A stretch of 64,000 bases of DNA from Sinomicrobium soli (GTDB taxonomy: Bacteria > Bacteroidota > Bacteroidia > Flavobacteriales > Flavobacteriaceae): contig NZ_QLNV01000005.1 of assembly GCF_003285545.1 (NCBI RefSeq), positions 1-64,000 of the forward strand, written 5' to 3'. Under the pieces are notes generated by a model. It searched no databases and was not told the DNA's origin. It was given only the letters and a program-made list of their open reading frames with translations. Positions 10,169-28,078 of this stretch are shown here, one piece after another. Made by a program: the position numbers and the translations under genes. The stretch's first letter is position 1. Every line of letters begins with the position of its first letter.

Positions 10169-10177
10169 GCAAAGGTA
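10169..10177 (-). promoter_or_regulatory. Bacteroidota -7 promoter element of rpiB-elaA
   Basis: TACCTTTGC on the minus strand, an exact TAnnTTTGC match, 26 nt upstream of the preferred rpiB start at 10142. This supports that start over the more distal in-frame codons, which would begin at or inside the element. Confidence 0.6.
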
Positions 10178-10700
10178 CTAAATAAGGCTTTTGAACTGCT
10201 ATAAACAGCCTTGTTAATTTGATTTTATAATGATTTAATACTGAATTAATTATATCTTAACAGTAGGTGTTGATATTTATGGATTATAATCTCACAAAAT
10301 AATTTGCATATATCGGAAGATATTGCAATATGCTTTTTTATCTGAAGAAAGCAAGCGGATTCTTTTAAAATTTCCCGGCCGGTTATCAAGATACAAAACC
10401 CGGTTATCAACAACTGTCAACAGTCTTATTTATCAAAAAAATACCGTTATTCACTGTTGTTGACAACTGTTAATTACTTTCCGGTTACACATAAAAATGA
10501 AAGGGTTATCTCCGGTAAAAGCTGTTAATTACCCGGTATATTTTTTAATAAGAGGGGAAGTCAAGCTTTTCCCGGAAATTTTACGCTACAAATCAACAGC
10601 CTATAATAACACATCAAAAAATATTTTTTTAAAAAAGAATTTATAATGATAATGTTAACTGTTGTTAATTATTTCGCACTGAAAAGAAAATAAATATTTC
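10178..10700. other. Candidate chromosomal replication origin (oriC)
   Basis: A roughly 520-nt AT-rich gap with no coding sequence. It carries three exact TGTTAATTA words on the plus strand (10468-10476, 10523-10531, 10663-10671) plus TGTTAATTT at 10212-10220. DnaA-box-like words are TTATCAACA (10404-10412), TTATTCACT (10447-10455) and TTGTCAACA (minus strand, within TGTTGACAA at about 10458-10466). An A/T-only run around 10618-10637 could be the unwinding element. Hand counts show plus-strand genes to the left tending to C>G and plus-strand genes to the right G>C, as expected at an origin. parS-like sites lie 14-17 kb away. dnaA is not adjacent, and this is inference, not proof. Confidence 0.6.
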
Positions 10701-10943
10701 TCAAACGATCCGCATCGAGGTACCCTTATCGTCGAACTCCCTGAGGATCTCGAGTACGGCTTCGGCATCTTCACGGTGCACCTTCAGGCGTATTCCGCCC
10801 AGGGCGTTGGAGTAGAAAGGCGTCACATTTACCATGGTCTCGTTCTCGAAGACATGAGGAATTTCTGCGTCTTCCAGGACAAGGCGAAGCACCGCGTATT
10901 CATAGGGGTACGTAAAGGTCGCAACGGTTACGAATTCTTCCAT
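10701..10943 (-). CDS. DUF2007 domain protein
   Basis: An 80-aa protein of the DUF2007 family (putative signal-transducing, ferredoxin-like fold). The pattern is VATFTYPYEYAVLRLVLEDAEIPHVFENETMV...GGIRLKVHREDAEAVLEILREF: a strand, a helix spanning the conserved exchange of a compact domain, and a second strand-helix unit. Members are small, cytosolic and of unknown role. It abuts the candidate origin and is transcribed toward it. No other gene shares the transcript except possibly the 53-aa ORF just upstream at 10998-11159. Confidence 0.75.
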   Translation of the reverse strand: MEEFVTVATFTYPYEYAVLRLVLEDAEIPHVFENETMVNVTPFYSNALGGIRLKVHREDAEAVLEILREFDDKGTSMRIV

Positions 10944-10997
10944 GAAGTTAATTCTTGGTTAAGTTCGTATAAAAATAGAAAAATTGACGGATATTTG

Positions 10998-11159
10998 CTA
11001 CGAATAAAAGGAGATATGCAGTGGGGATCCCGTTGCAGTTTGTTCTTCCCTGTTGTGCTCTTTCTTCTCCAGGGCACAGTCTATGTAAGTGGTAAATGAT
11101 ACTATCCCTGCAATGAATATGAAGAAAAATACTATGGTGATGTGATATGCCTTTTTCAT
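10998..11159 (-). CDS. Small predicted membrane/secreted peptide (53 aa)
   Basis: A 53-codon frame from an ATG at 11159 to a TAG at 10998. The product begins MKKAYHITIVFFFIFIAGIV, a Lys-Lys start followed by a hydrophobic stretch of about 16-18 residues. A short charged tail rich in Glu/Lys with one Cys (residue 28) follows. This is the shape of a single-pass membrane peptide or a signal-peptide-bearing micropeptide. No family is recognised. It sits between DUF2007 and rnr with no other explanation for the 364-nt gap. The frame could be fortuitous. Confidence 0.4.
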   Translation of the reverse strand: MKKAYHITIVFFFIFIAGIVSFTTYIDCALEKKEHNREEQTATGSPLHISFYS

Positions 11160-11307
11160 TTGGAATTAGTTTAAGCAAGCTCTTATTAAACAGACGTAAA
11201 GAAGGACAGATTGTTACAGCTGGGTTTAATTAAATTTTAACTTGTGCACTTCCACAGTGTTACTTCGATTATTATTTGTACTTTTCGAATTAAATAGAAA
11301 CGATTAT

Positions 11308-13503
11308 ATGTCAAGAAAGAAAAAACGTGCTGAGAAGCACAAAAAAAATGAAATTACCAAGGGAATATTTTCAGTACTCGAAAAGAGTCCCGAACAATCA
11401 TTCAACTATAAACAAATAGCTTCAAGACTGGGGATTACCGATGCGGGCGGACGAAATCTTCTCATAAAGAAACTGGTAGAGCTCAGGGAAAAGAAATCCG
11501 TTAAGGAAGTAGAACGCGGAAGATACCAGGCTATCCCGTCGCTCAATTATTTTACGGGAATTGTGGATGTTACGGGCCGGGGAAATGCCTATGTGGTGTG
11601 TGAAGGACTGGAACAGGATGTTTTTGTACCGTCTAACCTGCTCGGAAAAGCCTTGCATGGCGACGAAGTGGAGGTGTATGTTTTTCCCGGACGACGGCGG
11701 AACGGAAAGAAACTCGAAGGGGAGATCACCAGGATCATTTCCAGGAAAAAGACTGCTTTTGTGGGAGTCGTGCAGATGCAGAAAAATTTCGCTTTTGTAA
11801 TACCTTCCGATTTCCGGATGTATACCGATATTTTTGTACCCAAAAGCAAGATAAACGGTGCCGAACATGGCGACAAAGTGCTGGTGGACATCGAAGACTG
11901 GCCGGAAAAGGCCGATTCTCCTTACGGAAGCATACAAAAGGTTTTCGGAAAACCCGGGGAGCACAATACCGAAATGCACGCCATCCTGGCCGAATACGGC
12001 CTGCCTTACGCTTTTCCGGAAGAGGTGGAGCACTATGCCGATCAGCTGGATACTTCCATTACTCCCGATGAGATAAAGAAACGCCGCGATATGCGTGACA
12101 TACTTACCTTTACCATAGACCCGGCAGATGCAAAGGACTTCGACGATGCCCTGTCTTTCCGCGTGCTGGATAACGGGAATTTTGAGGTGGGGATACACAT
12201 TGCGGACGTATCGCATTACGTCAGGCCGGGAAGCATTCTCGACGAAGAAGCGTATAACCGGGCTACTTCGGTGTACCTGGTAGACCGGGTAGTGCCCATG
12301 CTGCCCGAAATACTGTCGAACAATGCCTGCTCGCTGCGGCCCAACGAAGAAAAATATACCTTTTCGGCAGTTTTTGAAATGAACGGAAAGGGAGAGGTGC
12401 TCGACAAATGGTTCGGGCGTACCGTGACCTATTCCGACAGGCGGTTTGCCTATGAAGAGGCCCAGGCCATTATCGAAAGCGGGGACAACCGGGTGCCGGA
12501 AGAGGCATCGCTTACCGGTAAGGCTTACCAGGTGGAGCAGGAGGTGGCCGATGCCATTCTGAAACTGGATGAGATGGCGAAAGTGATGAGGGTAAAACGG
12601 ATGGGACACGGTGCTATTTCGTTCGATAAGGTAGAGGTAAAGTTCTTCCTCAACGAAGAGAACGAGCCCACCGGGGTCTTTTTCAAGGAGGCCAAAGATG
12701 CCAATAAACTTATCGAGGAGTTCATGCTGCTGGCCAATCGTAAGGTAGCGGAGTATATCGGAAAGATGAAACCCCCGAAAACTTTTGTATACCGGGTGCA
12801 CGACGAACCGGATGAGGATAAACTGATACAGCTGCAGGGCATTATTTCCCGATTCGGATATTCCCTTGACATGAAGAGCAAAAAGACCATTACAAGCTCT
12901 TTAAACAAGCTTCTCGGGGATGTTCAGGGCAAGAAGGAGCAGAACCTGGTCGATACCCTGGCCATACGCAGTATGAGCAAGGCGGAATACACCACGCACA
13001 ATATCGGGCATTACGGACTGGCTTTTGACTATTACACACATTTTACCTCCCCCATACGCCGGTATCCCGACGTTATGGTACACCGGCTGTTACAGCATTA
13101 CCTCGACGGTGGCGAATCGGCGAAAGAGGAAACCTACGAAGAAAAGTGTAAGCATTCTTCCGGTATGGAAAGCCTTGCGGTAAATGCCGAAAGGGATTCT
13201 GTCAAATACATGCAGATCAAGTTTATGGAGGAACACAGGGACGAAGAGTTTGTCGGGGTTATTTCCGGGGTTACCGAATGGGGTATTTACGTGGAGATTA
13301 TCGAGAATAAATGCGAGGGCATGATCCGCACCCGTGAGATTAAAGACGATTATTATGTGTTTGACGAAAAACAGTACGCCCTGGTGGGAGAAGTGACCAA
13401 AAATATGTACCAGCTGGGCGATGAAGTGATTGTAAAAGTTAAGAGTACCGACCTGATAAAACGCCATCTTGATTTCGAATTGCTGGGAAAAGCCGAAGAT
13501 TAG
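11308..13503 (+). CDS. rnr: Ribonuclease R
   Basis: A 731-aa 3'-5' exoribonuclease of the RNB family that degrades structured RNA and takes part in mRNA and rRNA quality control. Domain order: a basic N-terminus (SRKKKRAEKHKKNE), a winged-helix segment (residues ~15-70), two cold-shock/OB domains (~75-220), the RNB catalytic domain (~255-585) with TIDPADAKDFDDALSFR supplying the Mg-binding aspartates, YTHFTSPIRRYPDVMVHRLL, and a C-terminal S1 domain (~645-725, EFVGVISGVTEWGIYVEI). An in-frame TTG at 11242 would add 22 non-conserved residues. The ATG at 11308 is preferred. It is the first large gene right of the candidate origin, co-directional with replication. Confidence 0.96.
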   Translation: MSRKKKRAEKHKKNEITKGIFSVLEKSPEQSFNYKQIASRLGITDAGGRNLLIKKLVELREKKSVKEVERGRYQAIPSLNYFTGIVDVTGRGNAYVVCEGLEQDVFVPSNLLGKALHGDEVEVYVFPGRRRNGKKLEGEITRIISRKKTAFVGVVQMQKNFAFVIPSDFRMYTDIFVPKSKINGAEHGDKVLVDIEDWPEKADSPYGSIQKVFGKPGEHNTEMHAILAEYGLPYAFPEEVEHYADQLDTSITPDEIKKRRDMRDILTFTIDPADAKDFDDALSFRVLDNGNFEVGIHIADVSHYVRPGSILDEEAYNRATSVYLVDRVVPMLPEILSNNACSLRPNEEKYTFSAVFEMNGKGEVLDKWFGRTVTYSDRRFAYEEAQAIIESGDNRVPEEASLTGKAYQVEQEVADAILKLDEMAKVMRVKRMGHGAISFDKVEVKFFLNEENEPTGVFFKEAKDANKLIEEFMLLANRKVAEYIGKMKPPKTFVYRVHDEPDEDKLIQLQGIISRFGYSLDMKSKKTITSSLNKLLGDVQGKKEQNLVDTLAIRSMSKAEYTTHNIGHYGLAFDYYTHFTSPIRRYPDVMVHRLLQHYLDGGESAKEETYEEKCKHSSGMESLAVNAERDSVKYMQIKFMEEHRDEEFVGVISGVTEWGIYVEIIENKCEGMIRTREIKDDYYVFDEKQYALVGEVTKNMYQLGDEVIVKVKSTDLIKRHLDFELLGKAED

Positions 13504-24000: not shown

Positions 24001-24452
24001 AACAGGATGGTGATGGGGAAGGAGAAGGAGAAGGAGAATCCGAAGCCTTGTATGAGATCTACAAACAACAGCAGTTATTGCGTGAGGCCCTGGAAAAGCA
24101 GCTCAGGGATATGGAAGGAACTCCCGGCGAAAACGACGGGCAACAGTTGTTAAAAGACATGGAGCACATTGAAGATGCCCTGTTGCGCGAAGGGATGAAC
24201 GAGGCCACCATGAAGCAGATGCTGAACCTGAAACACGAGCTTTTAAAACTGAAGGATGCTGCGATGGAACAGGGAACCGAAAGCCGCAGGGAAAGCAGAA
24301 CGGGCAGGGAAGATTTCGAAAGGGAAACGGTAAAGCCATTGCCCGGGGCAGAGGAATATTTGCAGGGGATGGAGATATTAAACAGACAAGTATTACCTTT
24401 GCGGCAAATTTATAAAGATAAGGTAAAAAAATATTTTAGGAATGATGATTAG
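21096..24452 (+). CDS. DUF4175-family large membrane coiled-coil protein
   Basis: A 1118-aa protein matching the Bacteroidota DUF4175 family, whose role is unknown. Membrane helices are at about residues 34-57 (GILLFTAIGLLYFLFTLFVEHLLWL), 67-86 (TVLFWLFVAVEVCLLYRFIA) and 163-180 (LIPFILIFIVWISG). A beta-rich, likely periplasmic region spans ~190-505. It is followed by about 300 residues of Glu/Lys/Arg-rich coiled coil (from ~507, with many EEL/ERLE units). A Gly/Glu low-complexity segment (~948-985, GEGEGEGE) and a last helical part end at RQIYKDKVKKYFRNDD. The 3' end overlaps ybeY by 11 nt, so the two are translationally linked. The low-complexity segment is prone to length change. Confidence 0.82.
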   Translation: MQHHREKYETEALKGIKQKLEHFIRKYYANRLIKGILLFTAIGLLYFLFTLFVEHLLWLGKTGRTVLFWLFVAVEVCLLYRFIAMPLLKMFRIQKRMDYKEASAIIGAYFPEVGDKLVNVLQLSESSAEYSERDRELLLAGIAQKSARLQPFSFHFAVDFKQNLKYVKYALIPFILIFIVWISGNINWFSDSYKRVVDYRTAYEPPAPFSFFVMNETLNGVASKPFELQVKVVGDVLPEDVGIHFNGQHYFMQKEGADRYKYVFKQPGENIGFYLSSGKVASRPYLLTVDAAPVMTGFEMQLRYPSYVGRTPDTLKGTGNATVPEGTEVVWTLDTENTAVAEWSSANTVIPFRKIKSIGDRDIFSAAHRLYGNTSYEITTGNEKLPDYESLGFDIRVVKDEYPEIVVKEVPDSTAMNGTGFAGQISDDYGFYGLTIKYYPEGEEKKVKEKKIAVTPGVNVFRFARAFPGDIRLSEGVSYTVYFEVRDNDALRGGKSSASSRFSYRVRTREEIEREVSAKQKEAINSMERTLGEMENREEEGREIRALNMEKEEKSFNDRQRIDNYLREQMEQEEMMKRFTRELEERLEQAPESEDPLEKKLLQERLERQHQELEKNKKLLEELKKVSDKIDREDMARRLEQLARSEQNGKRNLEQVLELTKRYYVTQNAARLQQELERMAGRQEDLAKDSTGGEELKKKQEELNKEFGLWSEELRKLEEDNEGLKKPMELGTDHKEEENIRKEQQGAVDDMEKSDRENAAKKQRSAAGQMKEMAEKMNAAMQEGEASSDMEDARVLRQILKNLVTFSFGQEDLMKFVNQLQSETPDLTGSIHEQHNLKEMFTHIDDSLFALSLRRPELSEQVNKELTEAHFNIDASLEQLAENEVYRAVASQQYSFTAANNLAALLGEVLDNLQQNMSMGSGSGSGEMQLPDIIQGQEELNEQMRLQMNGKEGKPGEEGEQKGEGREGEQDGDGEGEGEGESEALYEIYKQQQLLREALEKQLRDMEGTPGENDGQQLLKDMEHIEDALLREGMNEATMKQMLNLKHELLKLKDAAMEQGTESRRESRTGREDFERETVKPLPGAEEYLQGMEILNRQVLPLRQIYKDKVKKYFRNDD

Positions 24453-24864
24453 TTTTCATTATGAGTCTGGTTTTTCCCTGAAGGACGAAGCATCTTATGC
24501 GGCGTGGATAGACCGTGTGATCCGGTCGGAAGAAAAAGAAACGGGAGAGATCAGTTATATTTTCTGTGATGACGACTATCTTTTGACCCTGAACCGGAAG
24601 TACCTCGATCACGACACCCTTACAGACATTATCAGTTTTGACTATACCGAGGGGAACACCATTCACGGGGATGTTTATATCTCTGTGGAGAGGGTCGGGG
24701 AGAACGCCCTGGATTTTGATGTGGATACGGAAGAAGAGCTCAGGAGGGTCATGGTTCACGGCATATTGCACTACTGTGGATACAAGGATAAATCTGTGGC
24801 AGAAAAGGAAGTAATGCGGAAAAAGGAGGAGGAAAAAATGGAATTGTTCCACGTGGAACAGTAG
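24442..24864 (+). CDS. ybeY: Endoribonuclease YbeY (rRNA maturation)
   Basis: A 140-aa zinc-dependent endoribonuclease involved in 16S rRNA 3'-end maturation and 70S quality control. The UPF0054 signature MVHGILHYCGYKD is present at residues 104-116, a one-His-shifted form of the H-G-x-L-H-x-x-G-H/Y-D zinc motif. It is preceded by TDIISFDYTEGNTIHGDVYIS. The start is ATG 24442 (a second ATG follows), overlapping the DUF4175 gene by 11 nt. The last codons spell ELFHVEQ because a 16-bp parS-like palindrome (24845-24860) is embedded in the reading frame just before the stop. Confidence 0.93.
   Translation: MMISFHYESGFSLKDEASYAAWIDRVIRSEEKETGEISYIFCDDDYLLTLNRKYLDHDTLTDIISFDYTEGNTIHGDVYISVERVGENALDFDVDTEEELRRVMVHGILHYCGYKDKSVAEKEVMRKKEEEKMELFHVEQ
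24845..24860. other. parS-like centromere site 1 (inside ybeY)
   Basis: TGTTCCACGTGGAACA, a perfect 16-bp palindrome. It matches the bacterial ParB site TGTTTCACGTGAAACA at all but the symmetric T/C and A/G pair. It lies in the final codons of ybeY. Confidence 0.8.
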
Positions 24865-24981
24865 TTGTTTTGTCATGGAGTTTTGAATTATAAACCTGCC
24901 TGTCTATGTACAGGCCATGAATGTTATTGTGCCGGTTTAGCGCAACTCGGAATTCTGCGGGTTGCATTCTGAACTAAAAAA

Positions 24982-25033
24982 GCGGCTGAGTGTTTTCCCG
25001 CTTTGAGTCGGGGAATGTATCGAAGCCACCGGC
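24982..25033. repeat. Short hairpin repeat element, copy 2
   Basis: Shares GGCTGAGTG near its start and the end TGTATCGAAGCCACCGG with copy 1 at 5379-5427. The outer arms (GCGGCT / AGCCACCGGC) pair less perfectly here. Confidence 0.55.
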
Positions 25034-25059
25034 TTTAAAACACCCCTCCTCCTTTATAA

Positions 25060-25075
25060 TGTTCCACGTGGAACA
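25060..25075. other. parS-like centromere site 2
   Basis: TGTTCCACGTGGAACA, identical to site 1 over all 16 positions, 103 nt upstream of the mnmG start codon. Confidence 0.82.
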
Positions 25076-25177
25076 ACCAAAGTTCAGGGGGTAAAATGAT
25101 GCCGCTGGCAGAAGGATTCAGGACGGGGTCGTTTAAGGAAATATAGAAAACAGATATAACAGAAAACAAGTTTAGGC

Positions 25178-27049
25178 ATGTTTGACAGCACGTATGATGT
25201 TATTGTGGTAGGAGCGGGCCATGCCGGTTCGGAAGCAGCGGCGGCGGCGGCCAATATGGGGTCCAGGACGTTGCTCATAACGATGAATTTACAGAATATC
25301 GCGCAGATGTCCTGTAACCCCGCCATGGGCGGGATAGCCAAAGGACAGATCGTTCGCGAGATCGATGCCATGGGAGGATATAGCGGTATTGTGACCGACA
25401 GGACCGCCATTCAGTTTAAAATGCTCAACAAGTCGAAAGGTCCGGCCATGTGGAGCCCGAGAGCACAGTCTGACAGGATGCGCTTTGCAGAAGAGTGGAG
25501 GCTGATGCTGGAACAGACCCCCAATCTGGATTTTTATCAGGAAATGGTGTCCGGACTCCTGGTGGAGAACGGGAAAATTACCGGGGTAAAAACATCTCTC
25601 GGCATTGAAATAAAGGCAAAAGCGGTGGTGCTGACCAATGGGACTTTCCTGAACGGACTGATCCATATCGGCGAAAAGCAGTTCGGCGGAGGCCGGGCCG
25701 GGGAGCGGGCCGCTACGGGTATAACGGAAGACCTGATCAATCTCGGTTTTGATGCCGGTAGAATGAAAACGGGAACACCCCCGAGGGTGGATGGAAGATC
25801 GCTGGATTATTCCGTAATGCAGGAACAGCCCGGAGATGATATCCCCGAAAAGTTTTCGTATTCAGACCTCACACGCCCTCTTGAAAAACAACGGTCCTGC
25901 CACATGACCTATACCAGCCCGGAAGTGCACGACCTGCTCCGTGAAGGTTTCGACCGTTCTCCCATGTTCAACGGCAGGATTAAAAGTATAGGCCCGAGAT
26001 ACTGTCCTTCGATAGAGGATAAGATCAATCGTTTTGCCGATAAAGACAGGCACCAGTTGTTTGTGGAGCCGGAGGGGTGGAATACGGTGGAAGTTTATGT
26101 CAACGGTTTTTCGACATCCCTTCCCGAAGAGGTCCAGTTCAAGGCCCTGCGTTCGGTAACGGGATTTGAAAACGTGAAGTTTTTCCGCCCCGGGTATGCC
26201 ATAGAATACGATTATTTTCCGCCCACCCAACTCAGGCATACCCTGGAGACAAAGCTGGTGGAAAACCTGTTTTTTGCCGGGCAGATCAACGGAACTACAG
26301 GATATGAAGAGGCCGCTTCACAGGGGCTTATTGCCGGGATGAATGCACACCTGAAAGTTTTCGGGAAAGATCCTTTTATCCTCAAAAGGAGTGAAGCGTA
26401 TATTGGGGTGCTTATCGACGACCTGATCACCAAGGGCACCGAAGAGCCGTACCGGATGTTTACGTCGAGGGCGGAATACCGGACCCTCTTGCGACAGGAT
26501 AATGCCGATTTCAGGCTTACCCCGAGATCTCATGCTGTCGGACTGGCCTCCGGGGAACGGTTGCGCCGTATGGAAAAAAAGAAGGATAATGCCGACGCCT
26601 TTATTCACTTTTTCAGGGAGACCAGTGTAGACCCTTCGGAAATGAACCCGGTATTGGAAGAGAAAAAATCCTCACTGATGAAACAGTCCGATAAAATGTA
26701 CAAGGTGTTTTCACGACCGAATATTACGATGGACGACATGATGAAAATAGGGGAGGTAAGGCAGTATGCGGAGCACCATCAACTGGATAAAGAAGTGCTG
26801 GAACAAACCGAGATACAGGTAAAATATTCCGGGTATATTGAGAAGGAAAAGAACAATGCGGATAAACTGAACAGGCTGGAAGACATCGCCATTCCGTCCG
26901 GTTTTGATTACGACAAGCTGAAATCCCTTTCTTTTGAGGCAAGGGAAAAGCTGAAGCATATCCGCCCGGCCACACTTTCACAGGCGTCGCGTATCAGCGG
27001 TGTGTCGCCCAGCGATATCAGTGTAATGCTGGTGTATATGGGGAGGTAA
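25178..27049 (+). CDS. mnmG: tRNA uridine-5-carboxymethylaminomethyl modification enzyme MnmG
   Basis: A 623-aa FAD protein (GidA) that with GTPase MnmE installs cmnm5U at the wobble position 34 of certain tRNAs. The N-terminal VIVVGAGHAGSEAAAAAANMG is the FAD-binding Rossmann motif. MSCNPAMGGIAKGQIVREIDAMGG and GRMKTGTPPRVDGRSLD are conserved GidA blocks. GQINGTTGYEEAASQGLIAGMNA binds the FAD pyrophosphate. RAEYRTLLRQDNADFRLT leads into the C-terminal helical domain (about 460-623), ending with RPATLSQASRISGVSPSDISVML. Length is standard. It lies between two parS-like sites, in keeping with the frequent position of gidA near origins. Confidence 0.97.
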   Translation: MFDSTYDVIVVGAGHAGSEAAAAAANMGSRTLLITMNLQNIAQMSCNPAMGGIAKGQIVREIDAMGGYSGIVTDRTAIQFKMLNKSKGPAMWSPRAQSDRMRFAEEWRLMLEQTPNLDFYQEMVSGLLVENGKITGVKTSLGIEIKAKAVVLTNGTFLNGLIHIGEKQFGGGRAGERAATGITEDLINLGFDAGRMKTGTPPRVDGRSLDYSVMQEQPGDDIPEKFSYSDLTRPLEKQRSCHMTYTSPEVHDLLREGFDRSPMFNGRIKSIGPRYCPSIEDKINRFADKDRHQLFVEPEGWNTVEVYVNGFSTSLPEEVQFKALRSVTGFENVKFFRPGYAIEYDYFPPTQLRHTLETKLVENLFFAGQINGTTGYEEAASQGLIAGMNAHLKVFGKDPFILKRSEAYIGVLIDDLITKGTEEPYRMFTSRAEYRTLLRQDNADFRLTPRSHAVGLASGERLRRMEKKKDNADAFIHFFRETSVDPSEMNPVLEEKKSSLMKQSDKMYKVFSRPNITMDDMMKIGEVRQYAEHHQLDKEVLEQTEIQVKYSGYIEKEKNNADKLNRLEDIAIPSGFDYDKLKSLSFEAREKLKHIRPATLSQASRISGVSPSDISVMLVYMGR

Positions 27050-27068
27050 AGTGCGGATTTGCAAAAGA

Positions 27069-27084
27069 CGTTCCACGTGAAACA
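27069..27084. other. parS-like centromere site 3
   Basis: CGTTCCACGTGAAACA shares the central TTCCACGTG core and the right half TGAAACA of the canonical parS site, 19 nt past the mnmG stop. It is less symmetric than sites 1 and 2. Confidence 0.72.
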
Positions 27085-27211: not shown

Positions 27212-28078
27212 ATGGATAAGCCAGCAGCTTCACATTACCTGATGTGTAAAGACTATACCGTAAGCGGAGAACTTTTTGCCCTGGTCCGGGATGAAGAACT
27301 ACAGATGTTGAGAACCGTTCCCGCTCCGGCGGAAGACCGGTTGCCGGAATACTACAAAAGCGAAAACTATATTTCCCATACCGACGGAAAGAGAAGCCTT
27401 TTTGAAAAGTGCTATCATATGGTAAAGCGATACGCCCTTAAACAAAAGCTGAAATATATCAACAGGGAAAATCCGGAAAAGGGGAGGTTACTCGATATCG
27501 GTGCGGGCACCGGTGATTTTTTGCTGGTGGCTAAAGCAGACGGATGGCAGGCCGAAGGAATAGAACCCAATACCTCTGCCCGTAAAAGAGCGAAAGAAAA
27601 AGGGATCTCTTTACGGGAGGAGTCGGATGAGGTTTTTATGGAAGACCGGTCGGGAGCATATACCTCCATTACCCTATGGCATGTTCTGGAACACGTGCCC
27701 GATCTGCACCGGCAGATCAGCGAATTGAAAATACTGCTTAAAAGGGAAGGCACCCTTTTTGTGGCCGTACCCAATTTCAGGTCGTACGATGCGGAACACT
27801 ACAAAAGTTTCTGGGCCGCGTATGATGTGCCGAGACATTTATGGCATTTTTCCCCGGAAGCGATAAAAGCCGTTTTTCAACAACACGACATGAAAGTCAT
27901 CCGGCAGATCCCCATGAAATTCGATGCCTTTTACGTAAGCCTTCTTTCTGAAAAATACAAAACCGGGAAAATGAATTTTTTGAAGGCTTTTCGCCTCGGA
28001 TGGCGGTCTAACCGCAAAGCAGCCTCCAGCGGACAATACTCTTCCCTGATTTATGTGATAAAACACGCGAATACTTGA
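27212..28078 (+). CDS. Class I SAM-dependent methyltransferase
   Basis: A 288-aa methyltransferase-like protein. RLLDIGAGTGDFLLVAKADGWQAEGIEPN (from about residue 91) is motif I with its following acidic loop. SITLWHVLEHVPDLHRQISELKILLKREGTLFVAVPNF is the motif IV-VI region characteristic of the Methyltransf_23/11 group. The first ~85 residues (DYTVSGELFALVRDEELQMLRTVPAP...YYKSENYISHTDG) match the N-terminal extension seen in methyltransferases that often act on glycans or lipids. The substrate is unknown. No partner gene is adjacent. The frame begins at ATG 27212. Confidence 0.85.
   Translation: MDKPAASHYLMCKDYTVSGELFALVRDEELQMLRTVPAPAEDRLPEYYKSENYISHTDGKRSLFEKCYHMVKRYALKQKLKYINRENPEKGRLLDIGAGTGDFLLVAKADGWQAEGIEPNTSARKRAKEKGISLREESDEVFMEDRSGAYTSITLWHVLEHVPDLHRQISELKILLKREGTLFVAVPNFRSYDAEHYKSFWAAYDVPRHLWHFSPEAIKAVFQQHDMKVIRQIPMKFDAFYVSLLSEKYKTGKMNFLKAFRLGWRSNRKAASSGQYSSLIYVIKHANT

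Follow-up and report, generated by a model that had tools for sequence, protein, structure and literature searches.

A predicted parS centromere of three palindromes bracketing mnmG and overlapping ybeY in Sinomicrobium soli

The window, meaning the whole stretch of 64,000 nucleotides analysed, carries ybeY (24442..24864, + strand; rRNA maturation RNase, NCBIfam TIGR00043, 102 bits against a cut-off of 45), mnmG, also called gidA (25178..27049, + strand; TIGR00136, 847 bits against a cut-off of 525), and a methyltransferase gene (27212..28078, + strand; Pfam Methyltransf_23). Three palindromes, with no strand assigned, lie among these genes inside 2.24 kb. Site 1 (24845..24860) is the perfect palindrome TGTTCCACGTGGAACA and sits within the last codons at the 3' end of ybeY, where it encodes an FHVEQ tail. 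Site 2 (25060..25075) has the same letters and is intergenic, in the ybeY-mnmG gap, 102 bp upstream of the mnmG start codon. Site 3 (27069..27084), CGTTCCACGTGAAACA, joins one GTTCCAC half to one GTTTCAC half just past the mnmG stop codon, starting 20 bp beyond the last mnmG base, and mnmG is thereby bracketed. All three are 16-bp parS palindromes with a NGTTNCACGTGNAACN core, as in chromosomal ParABS systems, and their coordinates and letters agree exactly with the original prediction.

The sites are few and clustered rather than spread over the genome, again as expected of chromosomal ParABS. Allowing up to 3 mismatches, TGTTCCACGTGGAACA matched three places in the window, compared to a mean of 0.22 and a maximum of 2 in 100 dinucleotide shuffles; the sole extra match in a window scan with TGTTTCACGTGAAACA was a 3-mismatch site at 13358. 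The original prediction had asked for a scan of the whole genome at 2 mismatches and would have given way to many evenly spread copies. Across the entire S. soli assembly (4.61 Mb in 43 contigs, 99.7% complete), TGTTYCACGTGRAACA with up to 2 mismatches occurred at six places, the three sites having 0, 0 and 1 mismatch and the other three having 2 each. Since the reversed control pattern itself gave two places, the three extra ones are near background, and no further place with 1 mismatch or fewer was found in the 4.61 Mb.

The genome also encodes the proteins expected to act on such sites. A parA gene (257 aa) and a parB gene (299 aa) lie side by side on contig C22 (locus L005), so the absence of parAB, named beforehand as a ground for rejecting a centromere, does not apply. 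The ParB has ParB_N, HTH_ParB and ParB_C domains (N-terminal, helix-turn-helix and dimerisation), and its best match among solved ParBs was 7bnk_A (E 1.5e-52), with Bacillus subtilis Spo0J chain 6sdk_A at E 7e-48. The CTP-binding motif of ParB proteins is GERRxRA, and the S. soli translation reads GERRFRA, aligned with the solved ParBs. At the positions matching Caulobacter ParB 173, 179, 184 and 201, which were mapped through a Noc alignment and the accessible text of PMC7383237 rather than through a Caulobacter alignment, it reads R-Y-K-G. According to that text, R173 and G201 mark parS-type binding and are called absolutely conserved in ParB. We sampled 31 loci (our own and the 30 best-scoring), one of which did not match the pattern used; R and G were present in 30 of the 30 ParBs read, that of S. 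soli included. A second ParB-like protein, a 657-aa frame on contig C40 (L006, G000:C40:269351-269848), could also bind; similar frames of about 600 aa are present in several relatives, perhaps as part of a mobile element. Among 60 genomes, S. soli included, a ParB match was absent from three. Two of these, G008 (80% complete) and G059 (83% complete), yet keep exact sites, and the third, G051 (0.3 Mb), has neither a ParB match nor an exact core, nor any place with 1 mismatch or fewer. Conversely, G010, G041, G046 and G058 have ParB and lack the exact core.

Loading of Smc-ScpAB by ParB-parS presupposes that Smc and ScpA are encoded. ScpA was not found in the S. soli genome, by a search that was positive in 9 of 14 controls, and no SMC_prok_B match exceeded the cut-off in any of the 60 genomes, compared to 10 of the 14 controls; Smc and ScpA were the components searched for. 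This agrees with two Bacteroidetes described as having no known condensins (accessible text of PMC10197239). SMC_N gave 18 matches in the S. soli genome, four of them over the cut-off, in frames of 365 to 597 aa that are too short for Smc. On contig C42, a frame of 1253 aa did not reach the SMC_N cut-off; it has a CPVC motif in the part read and by eye resembles SbcC.

By synteny with G002, a one-contig genome of the same genus, the sites appear to lie close to the replication origin, an indirect placement for a genome that is itself in contigs. The cumulative GC skew of the window has its minimum at 10800, inside the gap between rpiB and rnr (10173..11304, no strand assigned), the probable oriC; rnr is RNase R by TIGR02063, and rpiB was named by eye from its ORF. 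As the window includes only 10 kb on the left-hand side of the proposed oriC, the case for the origin depends mainly on G002. There, the sampled 20-kb stretches had negative skew in 8 of 8 cases up to 1.91 Mb and positive skew in 10 of 10 from 2.7 to 5.15 Mb, and the cumulative minimum, in 400 kb read unbroken, fell at 2,316,110, by synteny in the same rnr-rpiB gap; near the minimum the skew is uneven (positive at 2.13-2.16 and 2.18 Mb, negative at 2.35 Mb). Three parS sites of G002's own are found at 2,299,912-2,301,975, 14-16 kb from this minimum. The skew of G002, switching in the rpiB-rnr gap 14 kb from its own sites, thus lends independent support to the proposed link to oriC. In G028 the minimum of the 200 kb read is at 1,014,331, about 16 kb from its sites, on a noisy skew, a weak result on which the placement does not rest. 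Skew was used because clustering of DnaA boxes (TTATCCACA, up to 1 mismatch) showed no distinct peak for oriC, whether in the window or in G002. Positions 10330-10700, in the probable oriC gap, hold repeats such as GTTATCAACA and CTGTTAATTA and no exact TTATCCACA box, so the DnaA boxes there may be of another form.

A parAB operon near the origin is usual in chromosomal ParABS systems, although not strictly so, and parAB does not appear to lie near these sites: in S. soli it is on a different contig, and in G002 the chromosomal-type parB is at 606 kb, about 1.7 Mb from the skew minimum. The sites offer a way to mark the origin in draft genomes of this group, in which dnaA can be located in another place, as it is here on contig C33.

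The bracketing of mnmG recurs among relatives. The exact 14-base core was found in 55 of the 60 genomes (S. soli included), with exactly two copies in 39. Positions relative to mnmG could be compared in 58, leaving out G010 (mnmG not found) and G020, whose mnmG is divided between two contigs and has a core outside both of its ends. Exact cores lay within about 500 bp of mnmG on both sides in 44 of the 58, on one side in nine and on neither in five (G041, G046, G058, G051 and G028), the first three of which have a one-mismatch site at mnmG. Within the window's family, 33 of 35 genomes showed the two-sided arrangement, compared to 11 of 23 belonging to other families of the order.

We also examined named loci fetched by MnmG similarity, namely the best 80 of at least 592 stretches, which are mutually related, so that the counts are not independent events. 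With a 500 bp window, and with the last 60 mnmG bases scored as downstream, exact cores stood on both sides of mnmG in 66 of these best 80, upstream only in nine, downstream only in three and on neither side in two; with up to 1 mismatch allowed, 74 were two-sided. Of the two blanks, L143 stops where its contig does, and another contig of that genome opens with 35 residues matching the end of mnmG and then two sites, suggesting that the two contigs join at the end of mnmG; the second is a Capnocytophaga MAG. In the same best 80 of at least 592, the 79,225 bp near mnmG held 175 cores, plus two overlapping its stop codon, compared to nine in the remaining 951,608 bp, and the reversed control with up to 1 mismatch had no match in these loci.

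Several loci show variations on this arrangement. In Flavobacterium, L083, L084 and L089 carry arrays of 6 to 7 exact cores upstream of mnmG, those of L083 being interspersed with four one-mismatch copies at a spacing of about 117 bp. Six loci from Polaribacter, Tenacibaculum and a UBA2540 MAG (L112, L113, L115, L117, L119 and L127) have an exact upstream site and a downstream site with 1 mismatch at varying positions. The upstream sites of L109 and L118 share an identical one-base departure, GTTCCACATGGAAC, three and two times, respectively, possibly reflecting a shifted site preference. A one-mismatch place, mostly TCTTCCACGTGAAACA, occurs about 4.5-5.6 kb past mnmG in L071, L073, L074, L076, L077, L080 and L085. 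Two MAG contigs labelled Limnohabitans and Chitinophaga (L079 and L097) carry an equally bracketed mnmG with 79-80% protein identity to that of the window, and their labels look wrong.

Beyond the order, an exact core lay no more than 500 bp from mnmG in 16 of 20 genomes from other orders of the same class (upstream only in 15, on both sides in one), and likewise in 16 of 20 from outside the class, one from each of 20 families (seven on both sides, five downstream, four upstream). Among 30 further loci with the best MnmG scores of the phylum draw, a few of whose genomes also occur in the other sets, 28 had an exact core within the same distance. Eight class or phylum genomes had no exact core there: G091 and G113 have one-mismatch sites at mnmG, the core of G161 is slightly past 500 bp, G095, G122, G092 and G166 have exact sites elsewhere, and G149 has a one-mismatch place only. 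Because the reversed control with up to 1 mismatch gave 0 to 8 places per genome, lone one-mismatch places far from mnmG mean little. From these counts, parS is tied to mnmG throughout the phylum, while bracketing on both sides is the rule for the window's family. Among the papers listed by our literature searches, judged mostly by titles and the starts of abstracts, none dealt with parS beside mnmG or ybeY in Bacteroidota, which is no proof of absence; a 2007 survey by Livny and colleagues, going by its title, concerns parS sites predicted in a wide range of bacteria.

Two lineages have mnmG and the sites in separate places. The mnmG of G028 is about 280 kb from the cluster and has no site beside it, while its three sites, 3 kb from rnr, surround the homolog of the methyltransferase gene located just downstream of mnmG in the window. 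The Capnocytophaga MAG (L126) likewise has no site at mnmG, within 6 kb of which 0 of 16 other window genes tried had a match; its three sites adjoin a methyltransferase homolog on another contig, an association that rests on MAG binning. Since the sites stay by the methyltransferase gene in both, they belong to the chromosome region rather than to mnmG. The original wording, that the sites lie near mnmG, needs correcting in that they bracket mnmG in most relatives and are independent of it.

The overlap with ybeY allowed us to examine what is conserved, the peptide or the DNA. Of 114 ybeY matches in the scanned loci (some genomes counted twice), 48 had an exact core touching the last 90 bases; 39 of these 48 gene ends read the core as FHVE or FHVK, and some others have it in a different reading frame, where it encodes VSRET. 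When genes were chosen by peptide only, FHV[EKDQ] occurred in the last 14 residues of 39 of 110 distinct ybeY genes. These 39 used CAC in 39 of 39 cases, GTG in 39 of 39 and GAA in 35 of 35 E codons (the other four being AAA for K), with F encoded by TTC in 30 and TTT in nine, both of which the core allows. The bodies of the same 39 genes used CAC at 74 of 172 codons, GTG at 60 of 288 and GAA at 416 of 580 (Fisher p from 2e-5 to 1e-23 for tail versus body, uncorrected for relatedness). The synonymous codons of the ybeY tail are thus frozen, and it is the DNA word that is kept.

Exclusive sites, a parAB operon, a ParB with the matching parS-type residues, the skew-switch neighborhood placed by synteny with G002 and DNA-level conservation, all computed here, support the original call, and we have high confidence that these three sites make up the chromosome's parS centromere, to which ParB is predicted to bind. 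We also weighed other readings. The palindromes could be operators for a regulator of mnmG (or ybeY), their resemblance to parS being secondary. Among those of the best 80 of at least 592 loci that have an exact core upstream, the closest one is a median of 16 bp from the mnmG start, where a bound protein could affect transcription. However, this distance is 102 bp in the window, an mnmG operator ill fits sites past the stop codon, two of which overlap it, and in G028 and the Capnocytophaga MAG the sites keep company with the methyltransferase gene and mnmG goes without; we regard this reading as very unlikely. A role of the palindromes as RNA hairpins around mnmG, either as terminator or as attenuator, is extremely improbable, even though six bases in a perfect site could form pairs around ACGT and the downstream sites are close past the stop codon. 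No T run follows site 3, and mixed sites on the mnmG strand of the best 80 of at least 592 loci, related sequences that are not independent, broke the stem (C opposite A) rather than formed a U-G wobble by 17 to 16 upstream and 23 to 8 downstream.

Binding by a Noc-like nucleoid occlusion protein in place of ParB would draw on the best NCBIfam score of the S. soli ParB, which is to the Noc model (240 bits), and on its K at position 184, also the Noc residue. However, 240 bits is below that model's cut-off of 315, whereas parB_part was passed (167 against 58), and K or R occupies position 184 in about 28% of ParBs (accessible text of PMC7383237). The switching positions are R and G, not the Q173 and R201 of Noc, and the sites lack the A at position 1 and the C at position 6 that are the NBS letters in the same text. 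The chance that Noc is the binder seems close to nil.

For the centromere, characterized ParABS systems suggest a mechanism. ParB, encoded by parAB at another place on the chromosome, would recognize each site in dimeric form, with a helix-turn-helix for either half-site, then close as a CTP clamp and slide off over ybeY-mnmG and their neighbors. A partition complex would be built about 14-16 kb from oriC, and ParA would move such complexes apart early after replication. Because neither ScpA nor an above-cut-off Smc was detected, the main task is likely segregation by ParA rather than Smc-ScpAB loading. In the window's family the bracket might even be a functional cassette, in which ParB clamps slide over mnmG from loading sites that face each other across about 2 kb, building the partition complex of bacteria with no detected Smc or ScpA and tying mnmG transcription to origin segregation, an idea that we consider improbable. 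The parS element itself is familiar in type; what a specialist may not expect is that it brackets mnmG and overlaps ybeY, and that Smc and ScpA were not detected. A parS address held beside one gene across several classes, even within a coding region, suggests that the position of the centromere is under strong selection.

Among known systems, the Spo0J/ParB-parS system of B. subtilis has a ParB of the same protein family as that of S. soli. According to the accessible text of PMC13342612, B. subtilis ParB recruits Smc at parS, a partner not found here. Pseudomonas aeruginosa offers a close likeness, with a small cluster near oriC (parS1-4) and parAB present; the 16-mer of sites 1 and 2 is identical to its parS2 and parS3, high-affinity sites that rank first for binding in vitro, and a single oriC-proximal parS suffices (all as given in the available parts of PMC4368675). 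The same 16-mer is listed for P. putida, and a one-base variant for Myxococcus, in a table of PMC7022226, whose accessible text also describes repression of adjacent genes by P. aeruginosa ParB at parS3 and parS4. S. soli differs from P. aeruginosa in that its sites bracket mnmG, parAB is unlinked, and ScpA and an above-cut-off Smc were not detected. Nearer in descent are Bacteroides caecimuris and Muribaculum intestinale, which are not flavobacteria and for which the accessible text of PMC10197239 mentions neither mnmG nor a bracket. That text reports no known condensins in either species and leaves open, for Bacteroides, what ParB-parS does without condensin, a question for which a ParABS system with no detected Smc or ScpA is a natural setting. 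As in S. soli, a parS cluster is used there to locate the origin in these two members of the same phylum.
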